From assembly GCA_026126205.1 (NCBI GenBank), contig JAHCJP010000001.1, positions 434,001-498,000 on the forward strand: DNA of 64,000 bases. The letters are read 5' to 3'. The position numbers were made by a program, and so were the translations under genes. This document shows, piece by piece, positions 6,846-10,604 of the stretch (its first letter is position 1; each line of letters starts with the position of its first letter). The notes beneath the pieces were generated by a model. The model ran no database searches. It saw only the letters and a program-made list of their open reading frames with translations, and had not been told where the DNA came from. This stretch comes from Maricaulaceae bacterium (GTDB lineage Bacteria > Pseudomonadota > Alphaproteobacteria > Caulobacterales > Maricaulaceae).

Positions 6846-8012
6846 TTACCCGCCCTTTCCGTGTTCGGCCAGCACTGAAACCGGTGCAATGCGATCGGCC
6901 CCGTAGCATCCGAGAATGCGCAGCCGCCGCGCGGCGGCGCTCAAGGCGTCCATCGCCCGCCGCGCCGCCGGATCGTTCCGGTGCGCCTCGAAGTCGAGGA
7001 AGAACATCTCCTCCCACGGCGCACCGGGAGCGGGGCGTGATTCCAGTTTGGCGAGGTTGATGCCCTCGTCGCGGAATGCCGCCAGCGCGTCCAGCAACGC
7101 TCCCGGACGGTCGGCGGTGGCGAACATCACGCTGGTCTTGCACGGCAGGTTGATCGCCGGAAGCGCGGCTTCGCGCGCCAGCGCGATGAAGCGGGTGTAG
7201 TTCTCGGCCTGGTCGTTGGCCTCGGCGGCGATCACGTTCATGCCGAATAGGCGCGCCGCATCGGCCCCGGCGATGGCGGCGCTGGCCGGCCCCTCCTCCA
7301 TCGCCAACTCCAGCGCGCGGGTGGAGCTGGAGACGAACCGCGACACCAGATGCGGATGGCGGGCGAGGAAGCGGCGCGACTGCGCCAGCGCCTGCGGATG
7401 GCCGTAGACGGTCGAGACCGCGTCCAGTGACGCCGCCTTGCCGACAATGCAGTGACGAACCTTGTAATGATGCTCGCCAGCTATGGTCAGATCGCAGTCC
7501 AGCAGCAGGTCATAGACCTCGCTGATGCCGCCGGTGGTGGTGTTCTCGATCGGCAGGAAGCCGTATTCGGCTTCGCCCTTTTCCACGCTGCGCACGATGG
7601 ATTCGAAATCACGGCGCACCACCGGCTCCACCGCGTCGTACCGGCCGCGGAAATGCGCCTGGGCGGCGAAATGGGAATAACTGCCCGGCCCGCCGAGATA
7701 GGCCACGCGCGTCTCGCGGCTTTCGCCGGCGCGGGCGTCCAGCGCCGCGCGCTGGCCGCGCAGGCTCATCTCGATCAGCGTTTGGTAAAGGCGCTCCACC
7801 GCCGCTGGCTCCAGCCCCATGGCCTCGCCCGCCTCGACGGCGCGGGCCAGCACCGCCTTTTCGCGCTCGGTGTCGCGCACAGGCGCGCCCGAGACGGCCT
7901 TGGCCGCCGCCAGCCGCGCGCCCAGCGCCGCGCGCTCCGCCGTCAGGCGCAGGATTTCGCGGTCGGCGGCGTCGATGCCGGCCCGGATATCCCTCAGCGT
8001 CTGTTCGTCCAT
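6846..8012 (-). CDS. pheA: Bifunctional chorismate mutase / prephenate dehydratase (P-protein)
   Basis: This enzyme converts chorismate to prephenate and prephenate to phenylpyruvate, the committed branch to phenylalanine. It has 388 residues in three parts: an AroQ-type chorismate mutase domain (about 1-90), a prephenate dehydratase domain (about 105-285, with YLGGPGSYSHFAA near its start and the IENTTTGGI motif), and a C-terminal ACT domain whose ESRP and GALLDAL motifs bind phenylalanine for feedback inhibition. The ATG at 8012 has a GGGGGAA ribosome-binding site, which favours it over an in-frame TTG four codons upstream. An attenuator with a Phe-rich leader peptide lies directly upstream. 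Confidence 0.95.
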   Translation of the reverse strand: MDEQTLRDIRAGIDAADREILRLTAERAALGARLAAAKAVSGAPVRDTEREKAVLARAVEAGEAMGLEPAAVERLYQTLIEMSLRGQRAALDARAGESRETRVAYLGGPGSYSHFAAQAHFRGRYDAVEPVVRRDFESIVRSVEKGEAEYGFLPIENTTTGGISEVYDLLLDCDLTIAGEHHYKVRHCIVGKAASLDAVSTVYGHPQALAQSRRFLARHPHLVSRFVSSSTRALELAMEEGPASAAIAGADAARLFGMNVIAAEANDQAENYTRFIALAREAALPAINLPCKTSVMFATADRPGALLDALAAFRDEGINLAKLESRPAPGAPWEEMFFLDFEAHRNDPAARRAMDALSAAARRLRILGCYGADRIAPVSVLAEHGKGG

Positions 8013-8027
8013 GCATTCCCCCAAATG

Positions 8028-8115
8028 AAAAAGGCCTCCCGAAGGGGAGGCCCGGTGGTCGTCCTGCTCAGGTAATGAGCGCGTCAGCCGCCAGCCTCCC
8101 CCGTTTCCGGGAGGG
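8028..8115 (-). promoter_or_regulatory. pheA transcription attenuator (pause hairpin, antiterminator, terminator)
   Basis: On the minus strand four segments can pair alternatively. Segment 1 (CCCTCCC, 8109-8115) pairs with the start of segment 2 (GGGGGAGGC, 8094-8102). Segment 2 can instead pair over eight bases with segment 3 (GCCTCCCC, 8044-8051). Segment 3 otherwise pairs with segment 4 (GGGAGGCC, 8033-8040) to make an 8-bp terminator stem followed by TTTTT (8028-8032). Segment 1 lies inside the Phe-rich leader reading frame. This is the layout of classical amino-acid attenuation: ribosomes stalled at Phe codons would favour 2:3 and read-through into pheA. Confidence 0.88.
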
Positions 8116-8155
8116 CGTAGAAAAAGCCGTAAAAGAAGGCCGCCGCGCGCATCAT
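8084..8155 (-). CDS. pheA leader peptide (Phe/Tyr-rich)
   Basis: This is a 23-codon reading frame upstream of pheA containing the run FFYGFFY, four Phe and two Tyr codons within seven. It starts at ATG 8155 (or the next codon, 8152) and stops at TGA 8084-8086. Its 3' half overlaps segments 1 and 2 of the attenuator. Its likely role is to sense charged tRNA-Phe through ribosome speed, not to make a functional peptide. No strong Shine-Dalgarno is seen upstream. Confidence 0.85.
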
Positions 8156-8201
8156 GCGGAAAGCATGCGCGGCGGCGGCCTGTTCGTCAAACGCTTTGCG
8201 C

Positions 8202-10604
8202 TCAGTGCGCGACCTGGGCCTCGCCCTCGCCGCCGCGTCGCTCGCCCATCGCGGCGAGAGCCGCTTCATCGGCCTCGGTCCATTCGACCGGTTCGACCTT
8301 GCGGGTCAGGGCGTTGGCCAGCACCTCCTCGACCGTGGAGACGGGGATGATGGTCAGCCCCTTCTTCACATTGTCGGGGATTTCGGCGAGGTCCTTTTCG
8401 TTCTCGGCCGGGATCAGCACCGTCTTCACCCCGCCGCGAAGGGCGGCCAGCAGCTTCTCCTTCAACCCGCCGATGGGCAGCACGCGCCCGCGCAGAGTGA
8501 TCTCGCCGGTCATGGCGACATCCTTGCGCACCGGGTTCTGGGTCAGCACCGAAACGATGCCGGTCATCATCGCCACGCCGGCCGAGGGGCCGTCCTTGGG
8601 CGTCGCGCCTTCCGGCACGTGGACGTGGATGTCGGTGGCGCGGAACACGGTCGGCTTCACGCCCAGCGACGGCGCGCGAGCCTGCACGAAGGAATTGGCG
8701 GCCGAGATCGACTCCTTCATCACATCGCGCAGATTGCCGGTGACGGTCATGCGGCCGCGGCCGGGCATTTTCACCGCCTCAATGGTCAGCAGGTCGCCGC
8801 CCACTTCGGTCCAGGCCAGACCGGTGACCACGCCGACGCGGTCCTCGCCTTCGGTCTCGCCGAAGCGGTATTTGCGTACCCCGGCGAAGTCGCCGAGGTT
8901 ATCGGAGGTGACGGAGATGGATTTCGCCTCGCCGGCCTCGATCTTGCGCACCGACTTGCGGGCCAGGTTGGCGATCTCTCGCTCCAGGTTCCGCACCCCC
9001 GCCTCGCGGGTGTAGTAGCGGATCAGATCGCGCAGTGCGCCATCGTCCAGCGACCATTCGCCCTCTTTCAGCATGTGGTTCTCAAGCTGTTTCGGGATCA
9101 GGTGGCGGCGGGCGATCTCGACCTTCTCGTCTTCGGTGTAGCCAGCGATGCGGATGATCTCCATCCGGTCCAGAAGCGGCTGCGGCATGTTCAGCGTGTT
9201 CGCCGTGGTGACGAACATGATGCTCGACAGGTCGTACTCCACTTCCAGATAGTGGTCGGCGAAGGTGGAGTTCTGTTCGGGGTCCAGCACCTCCAGCAGC
9301 GCCGCCGAGGGGTCGCCGCGATAGTCGGCGCCCAGCTTGTCGATCTCGTCCAGCAGGAACAGCGGATTCGACGACTTGGCCTTTTTCAGCGACTGGATGA
9401 TCCGCCCCGGCATGGAGCCGATATAGGTGCGGCGGTGGCCACGGATTTCGGCCTCGTCGCGTACGCCGCCCAGGCTCATGCGCACGAACTCGCGGCCCGT
9501 GGCGCGCGCGATCGACCGGCCCAGCGACGTCTTGCCGACGCCCGGCGGACCGACAAGGCACAGGATCGGCCCCTTGATCTTCCGCGCCCGCGCCTGAACG
9601 GCGAGATGCTCCAGAATCCGTTCCTTGACCTTCTCGAGGCCGTAATGGTCGGCCTCCAGCACCGCTTCGGCGGCCTTCAGGTCTTTCTTCAGGCGCTTGG
9701 CCTTGCCCCAGGGCAAGGACAGTATCCAGTCGAGATAGTTGCGCACAACCGTGGCCTCGGCCGACATCGGGCTCATCTGGCGCAGTTTCTTGAACTCGGC
9801 CTCGGCCTTCTGGCGCGCTTCCTTCGACAGTTTGGCGGCGGCGAGCTTCTCCTCAAGCTCGGACAGCTCCTCGCGGGAATCGTCGCCCTCGCCCAGCTCG
9901 CGCTGGATCGCCTTCATCTGTTCGTTCAGATAGTACTCGCGCTGGGTCTTCTCCATCTGGCGCTTGACCCGGCTGCGGATCTTCTTCTCCACCTGCAGCA
10001 CGCTGATCTCGCCTTCCATCAGGCCCAGCGAACGCTCCAGCCGCCGGGCGGCGTCCGGCTCCTCCAGCAAAGCCTGCTTGTCGGCGATCTTCACGGCCAA
10101 ATGCGCGGCGATAGTGTCGGCCAGCTTGGCCGGGTCGGTGATCTGGCCGATGCTGGCCAGCGCCTCGGGCGGGGCCTTCTTGTTCAGCTTCACATACTCG
10201 TCGAACTTCTCGGCCGCGGCGCGCATCAGCGCCTCCAGCTCGGCCGGGTCGCTGTCCGTAGCTGCGAGCGGCTCGGCCTCGGCCTCGAAATACGACTCCT
10301 GGTCCGTGTAGCGCAGGATGCGCATCCGCGCCCCGCCTTCCACCAGCACCTTCACCGTGCCGTCGGGCAGGCGCAGCAATTGCAGCACCGAGGCGATGAC
10401 CCCGGTTTCGAAAATCGCCTCCGTCGCCGGGTCGTCGTCGCCAGCGTTCTTCTGCGTCGCCAGCAGAATCTGCTTGTCGGCGCGCATCACCTCTTCCAGT
10501 GCGCGCACTGATTTTTCGCGCCCCACAAACAGGGGAACAATCATGTGCGGGAACACCACGATGTCGCGCAACGGCAGCAGCGGAAGCGTCTTGGTCTCGG
10601 TCAT
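8202..10604 (-). CDS. lon: ATP-dependent protease Lon
   Basis: This cytoplasmic AAA+ serine protease degrades misfolded and regulatory proteins. At 800 residues it has the usual LonA length: an N-terminal substrate-binding domain ([15 protein letters not shown] start), a charged coiled-coil region, an AAA+ module with Walker A GPPGVGKT at about residue 352 and Walker B FLLDEID, and a C-terminal protease domain. The catalytic Ser is in PKDGPSAG (about residue 675) and the Lys in [10 protein letters not shown] (about 717). It follows clpX by 160 bases, so it probably has its own promoter. No heat-shock promoter of correct spacing could be identified there. Confidence 0.98.

Follow-up and report, generated by a model that had tools for sequence, protein, structure and literature searches.

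Does the short open reading frame (ORF) in front of pheA in a Maricaulaceae genome encode the leader peptide of a transcription attenuator and, as its codons include tyrosine, does tyrosine supply matter to this gene in addition to phenylalanine supply? The locus lies in a stretch of 64,000 nucleotides, here called the window (assembly GCA_026126205.1, contig JAHCJP010000001.1, positions 434,001 to 498,000). Our preferred reading, to which we assign a probability of about 0.62, is a ribosome-mediated transcription attenuator of pheA, most likely responding to the charging of both tRNA-Phe and tRNA-Tyr. On the level of sequence and comparison, it is supported by the leader, the spacing of its promoter, the terminator, a co-varying antiterminator, the conservation of the tyrosine codons and the presence or absence of pathway genes.

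The pheA Locus and Its Leader

All features of the locus described here are located on the minus strand. The pheA gene occupies positions 6846..8012 (ATG at 8012), and domain matches identify its product as a bifunctional chorismate mutase/prephenate dehydratase with an ACT domain. The attenuator, 5' of pheA, spans positions 8155-8028, and the upstream neighbor is the lon protease gene (8202..10604, stop codon 8202-8204). The tRNA gene behind pheA, inspected for a connection with phenylalanine or tyrosine, is a tRNA-Val.

Every element that the original prediction listed for the leader peptide is present. The ORF, at 8084..8155, consists of 23 codons, four for phenylalanine and two for tyrosine, ends in TGA and is predicted to be leaderless. 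It is thereby a short upstream reading frame in which codons for the regulated amino acid cluster. The aromatic residues form the run FFYGFFY, in which Phe-Phe-Tyr is encoded twice: by TTC TTT TAC at 8129..8137, a triplet that doubles as the U-tract of an overlapping hairpin (see below), and by TTT TTC TAC at 8117..8125, the predicted control codons. The last codon of this second triplet, Tyr13, ends 14 nt before region 2 of the attenuator. The two strands of the window together contain 414 ATG-initiated ORFs with a length of 15-40 codons. The leader ORF (in the form of two nested ATGs) is the only one of them with at least six Phe/Tyr codons in seven, and the 300-nt upstream region was dinucleotide-shuffled 20,000 times without once giving an ORF of this kind. 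The fold of the 185-nt attenuator region has a z of -4.7. The claimed distance to lon needs a small correction: the leader is indeed close, but the gap between the lon stop codon and the leader ATG measures 46 nt rather than 47.

Occurrence among Relatives

This PheA was found in 51 of 137 genomes of the GTDB family Maricaulaceae at E <= 1e-60. These relatives include Maricaulis, Hyphobacterium, Woodsholea, Oceanicaulis, Marinicauda and Glycocaulis; Hyphobacterium indicum is a member of the family by NCBI taxonomy. When the upstream regions of all 51 pheA loci were inspected, a counterpart of the leader was present at 46, and the phenylalanine codons, on whose conservation the original prediction hung, are conserved in them. 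In a sample of the order, this PheA was encountered in 46 of 398 genomes, all 46 within Maricaulaceae; in a sample of the class, it was encountered in one of 385, the host genome itself.

One of the five loci counted as non-leader loci, L015, reaches the end of its contig after a partial leader. At the other four of the 51, the leader is missing, and three of these belong to the genus of the window itself. The loci L016, L017 and L018 (genomes G024, G027 and G026) and L024 (G086) have neither leader nor attenuator, although their genomes have no clear prephenate dehydrogenase (TyrA) and do have the phenylalanine hydroxylase PhhA; the lon terminator is retained at L016, L017 and L018. At these four loci, pheA seems either to have lost its control or to have come under a different one.

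RNA Structure and Predicted Switching

In the fold of the untranslated leader, region 1 (8108..8113) is the 5' arm of a stem with region 2 (8092..8103), in which leader nucleotides 43-48 pair with 53-58; this is the leader-internal pause stem that had been claimed. The alternative partner of region 2 is region 3 (8044..8053), with which it can form an antiterminator. This helix was announced as 8 bp long and contains at least that many, with 10 consecutive pairs if G-U is included and ~12 bp with bulges. The same region 3 serves as the 5' arm of the terminator, whose 3' arm (region 4), together with the T5 run, lies at 8028..8040. The GC-rich terminator thus extends over 8053-8032 and is followed by T5 (8032-8028), as described in the original prediction. 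Antiterminator and terminator are mutually exclusive, the former overlapping the 5' arm of the latter.

An intrinsic terminator between leader and structural gene is present at all 46 leader loci, and in its consensus structure, 5 of the 10 pairs show two-sided changes with pairing kept. The covariation analysis in relatives that had been proposed as a check is also positive, as the antiterminator co-varies between lineages. Across 13 groups, split by eye within genera and compared over trimmed regions, own pairing has a mean of -24.3 kcal/mol vs. -20.3 for foreign pairing, and none of 20,000 permutations was as good; an earlier comparison against mean foreign pairings gave a modest difference (-26.1 vs. 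-23.7 and -23.3). Together with the conservation of the leader and the universal terminator, this co-varying antiterminator strongly supports a transcription attenuator of pheA.

The equilibrium fold of the window gives a terminator probability of 0.19 for a ribosome stalled at Tyr13 and of 1.00 for a ribosome at the stop codon or for no translation. Over the 46 leaders, however, this probability drops below 0.5 upon stalling in only 10, and in 44 of the 46 the structure formed while region 4 is still to be transcribed exceeds the isolated terminator hairpin in stability. Equilibrium folding therefore works for the window, not generally, and was discarded as proof of switching. The case for a switch rests on the covariation, and the switch itself would need kinetic (co-transcriptional) control.

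Tyrosine Codons and the Route to Tyrosine

If only the charging of tRNA-Phe counts, the tyrosine codons would be tolerated neighbors of the phenylalanine codons in a plain phenylalanine attenuator. The codon counts speak against such tolerance. The 46 Maricaulaceae leaders contain 143 Phe, 96 Tyr and 0 Trp codons, with tyrosine present in 45 of them. The control set comprised 58 genomes of the phylum with PheA at E <= 2e-68 (from 127 non-own matches in 387 genomes), which we take to be gammaproteobacterial from their E. coli-like leaders and gene type, plus nine weaker matches and E. coli. Control leaders were defined as ORFs with at least five Phe/Tyr in nine codons, phenylalanine and tyrosine being treated alike, and were found in 36 of the 58 genomes and in E. 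coli, and in none of the nine weaker matches. Tyrosine is nearly absent from these 37 leaders (231 Phe, 1 Tyr), although a Fisher value on such counts assumes codon independence and is not a fair probability. One of the excluded control candidates of score 4, in genome G1013, reads FFYGF.

The position of the codons bears on the same point. In the interval 12-20 nt before region 2, tyrosine is present in 44 of the 46 Maricaulaceae leaders; phenylalanine is present there too, in 41, as a plain phenylalanine attenuator would have it. Genus g15 argues for the opposite: this interval holds tyrosine in 13 of 13 leaders vs. phenylalanine in 8, and four leaders have tyrosine alone, with no phenylalanine, within 8-20 nt before region 2. 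The tyrosine codons of the Maricaulaceae leaders look selected.

TyrA was not detected in the host genome (99.98% complete), which has no match to PF02153 and none to a Maricaulaceae TyrA protein. The genome does encode PhhA (TIGR01267, 362 bits vs. a cut-off of 264.75), so that PheA should supply both phenylalanine and tyrosine. The original prediction had raised the question whether tyrosine supply also matters; given the conserved tyrosine in the predicted control position and a genome with PhhA but no TyrA detected, the answer is plausibly yes.

The leader genomes of the family extend this picture. In the 26 outside g12 (G004 set aside), no clear TyrA was found. Weak PF02153 matches occur in some of them, the best being that of G089 (26.6 bits at a cut-off of 26.5), which is unmatched by the TyrA protein search, and G028, among the 26, has a completeness of only 69%. 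Tyrosine codons are present in all 26 and in all three TyrA-less genomes of g12. A PhhA match is present in 43 of the 46 leader genomes; the three without one are G004 and two genomes that are 65-69% complete. The sole leader free of tyrosine belongs to G004, in which TyrA is present, PhhA was not found and a single CM_2 match exists; in the congeneric G003, which encodes PhhA but no TyrA, the leader has three tyrosine codons, a contrast that amounts to one genome pair. Congeners with and without PhhA and TyrA offer a natural contrast for the gain and loss of regulatory codons.

TyrA is present in 16 of the 19 g12 genomes, and all 16 also have tyrosine codons, which fits a plain phenylalanine attenuator and means that the absence of TyrA is not required for such codons. 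These genomes break the rule that TyrA is absent if and only if tyrosine codons are present. The rule that PhhA implies tyrosine codons was rejected as well: in the gammaproteobacterial control, TyrA is present in 36 of 36 leader genomes and PhhA in 17 of 36, and the leaders of these 17 are free of tyrosine, save one with a single tyrosine codon. Read together, the distributions suggest that tyrosine codons accompany dependence on the route from phenylalanine to tyrosine, with the exception of g12, where TyrA and tyrosine codons coexist.

Two peculiarities of the enzymes were observed. In genus g15 (G083-G097), the PF00351 matches of PhhA fall into two pieces per genome, which suggests that the hydroxylase is interrupted by an insertion or has diverged over part of its length. 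The TyrA of g12, g18 and G004 (L073, L072) is compact and divergent, with ~240-260 aa, and stays below all NCBIfam cut-offs; other Maricaulaceae genera with TyrA have the usual longer form.

A further reading, which goes beyond dual sensing, is put forward tentatively, at slightly less than even odds. Where tyrosine comes only from phenylalanine, the leader would be read chiefly as a tyrosine sensor, with tyrosine as the invariant control codon (as in g15); the control codons would follow the wiring of the pathway, and scarcity of the end product of the branch would control the precursor gene. The plain phenylalanine attenuator draws additional support from the AroR leader of Corynebacterium glutamicum (Phe-Tyr-Phe), which is reported to respond to phenylalanine and not to tyrosine (PMC11802643), but given the control leaders and genus g15, we regard it as unlikely. 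A much less probable alternative is that the shared signal is the supply of chorismate mutase, the tyrosine codons being present because the chorismate mutase of PheA also feeds TyrA. PheA does carry this domain, and the g12 genomes with TyrA and tyrosine codons are in line with it, but the host genome is without TyrA and has two further CM_2 proteins besides PheA, and G004, with its TyrA and single CM_2 match, has no tyrosine codons.

Predicted Promoter and Start Site and the Probable lon Terminator

The promoter was expected very close to the leader or within lon. The predicted promoter is close: a -35 element TTGACG (8185..8190) and a -10-like element CATGCT (CANNNT; 8162..8167), separated by a 17-nt spacer and ending 6 nt before the ATG, lie wholly inside the 46-nt gap. 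As the TTGAC box is located 3' of lon and 5' of the leader, no promoter inside lon needs to be invoked. TTGAC precedes the leader ATG by 35-37 nt in all 46 leader-bearing loci (35 nt in 21, 36 in 13 and 37 in 12, with 33-39 nt allowed). A CANNNT -10 element, a motif picked after inspection of the sequences, fits 45 of the 46, the spacer being 17 or 18 nt long and the distance to the ATG 6-7 nt. This promoter pattern has one match in the window vs. 0.04 expected, and five in the whole host genome vs. none for the reversed control. A generic sigma-70 scan, which requires at least 4 of 6 -10 positions, detected no promoter at the locus; CATGCT is a weak -10 motif that agrees with the E. coli consensus at 3 of 6 positions.

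Because of the nearly constant position of TTGAC, the promoter most likely lies in the gap and the leader mRNA is most likely leaderless, transcription being predicted to start at 8155, where the leader ATG has its A. Across Maricaulaceae, the pheA attenuator would, as a rule, have a leaderless leader peptide. The RNA of Sinorhizobium meliloti trpL is likewise reported to start at the ATG of the leader ORF (PMC7298713), and leaderless mRNAs are common in Caulobacter, with 375 reported (PMC4117421). A second leaderless-type promoter is visible in the host genome (L154, G000:C2:161524-161561, minus strand). Downstream of it come an ORF of 25 codons, GC-rich stretches and then another gene, which, as an impression from its sequence, may resemble Rnk-type regulators.

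The gap also holds part of a GC-rich hairpin with a U-tract, probably the terminator of lon (8130..8180), which spans the spacer and -10 element of the pheA promoter, the leader ATG and the first phenylalanine codons. The hairpin proper, 8180-8138, is followed by TTCTTTTA, and this U-tract coincides with the first phenylalanine codons of the leader. Promoter, start codon and control codons are in this way packed into the probable terminator of the neighboring gene. A transcript from the pheA promoter would be without the 5' arm of the hairpin, and its leader AUG would therefore be free; in lon read-through, the AUG would be sequestered.

This overlap is not general. At 23 leader-bearing loci, lon is no farther away than 600 nt. 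A separate lon terminator precedes the -35 element at 16 of these, where the overlapping hairpin is either missing or has a score of <=17.4. In six others, lon lies within 66 nt, and a strong overlapping hairpin (28.8-31.5) is found in three of them (L013, L014 and L022), not in the other three. The last locus, L049, has neither a separate lon terminator nor a strong overlapping hairpin. That the aromatic codons simply result from the lon terminator, with no leader peptide at all, is hardly credible: the hairpin with its TTCTTTTA does resemble a terminator whose U-tract spells phenylalanine codons, but the codons persist at the 16 loci with a separate lon terminator, phenylalanine is encoded by both TTT and TTC and tyrosine by both TAT and TAC, and the leader is also kept where other genes lie between lon and the leader.

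Proposed Mechanism

For the dual-sensing attenuator, we infer the following course of events, from the start site and leaderless translation to the stalling of the ribosome and the tyrosine response. RNA polymerase would begin with the A of the AUG of the leader; since this gives a leaderless mRNA, a ribosome could load at once. When charged tRNA-Phe or tRNA-Tyr is scarce, the ribosome would stall at the codons of FFYGFFY. A stall at the last triplet would cover region 1 and leave region 2 free to pair with region 3, and transcription would continue into pheA. With both charged tRNAs plentiful, the ribosome would reach the UGA and cover region 2, and the terminator of regions 3 and 4 would form. 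Tyrosine codons would be used because this lineage appears to make tyrosine from phenylalanine by PhhA without TyrA, PheA supplying both.

Comparison with Known Attenuators

In E. coli, pheL-pheA is controlled by an alternative antiterminator and terminator. The Maricaulaceae locus resembles this system (RF01859, Phe_leader) in having a short leader ORF, rich in codons for the product amino acid, 5' of the gene for the bifunctional chorismate mutase/prephenate dehydratase. The Rfam model matches the window over its full length (1-125) at 23.2 bits and E = 0.064, the second of 22 matches listed and below the gathering score of 55. The E. coli leader, in contrast, contains seven phenylalanine codons and no tyrosine, and tyrA is located next door, whereas the Maricaulaceae leader has tyrosine codons and is predicted to be leaderless.

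S. meliloti trpL (rnTrpL/peTrpL) is also an alphaproteobacterial attenuator with an RNA starting at the leader ATG, but its codons are for tryptophan, its gene is trpE(G), and its leaderless start is reported from experiment, while that of pheA is predicted (PMC7298713). For the pathway, a precedent is Dyella japonica, in which tyrosine is made by phenylalanine hydroxylase without TyrA, as has been suggested for Legionella pneumophila (GapMind, PMC7311316); the wiring is the same as that which the host appears to have, although this precedent, as far as the consulted part of that report goes, is metabolic and does not concern attenuation. The closest precedent for the codons is the aroR leader of the C. 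glutamicum aroF operon, in which a Phe-Tyr-Phe peptide takes part in the attenuation of aromatic biosynthesis. It belongs to another gene and phylum, and the portion of the report used here states no link to a missing TyrA (PMC11802643). Its response to phenylalanine alone lowers our confidence in tyrosine sensing.

No report of a pheA attenuator with both phenylalanine and tyrosine codons was found in the literature searched; the 2004 survey of proteobacterial attenuators (Vitreschak et al.) may already mention this leader. If attenuator codons are tied to a change in pathway topology, the leader sequence could predict the route to tyrosine, and the reverse. The Maricaulaceae leader is a variant of classical ribosome-mediated attenuation.
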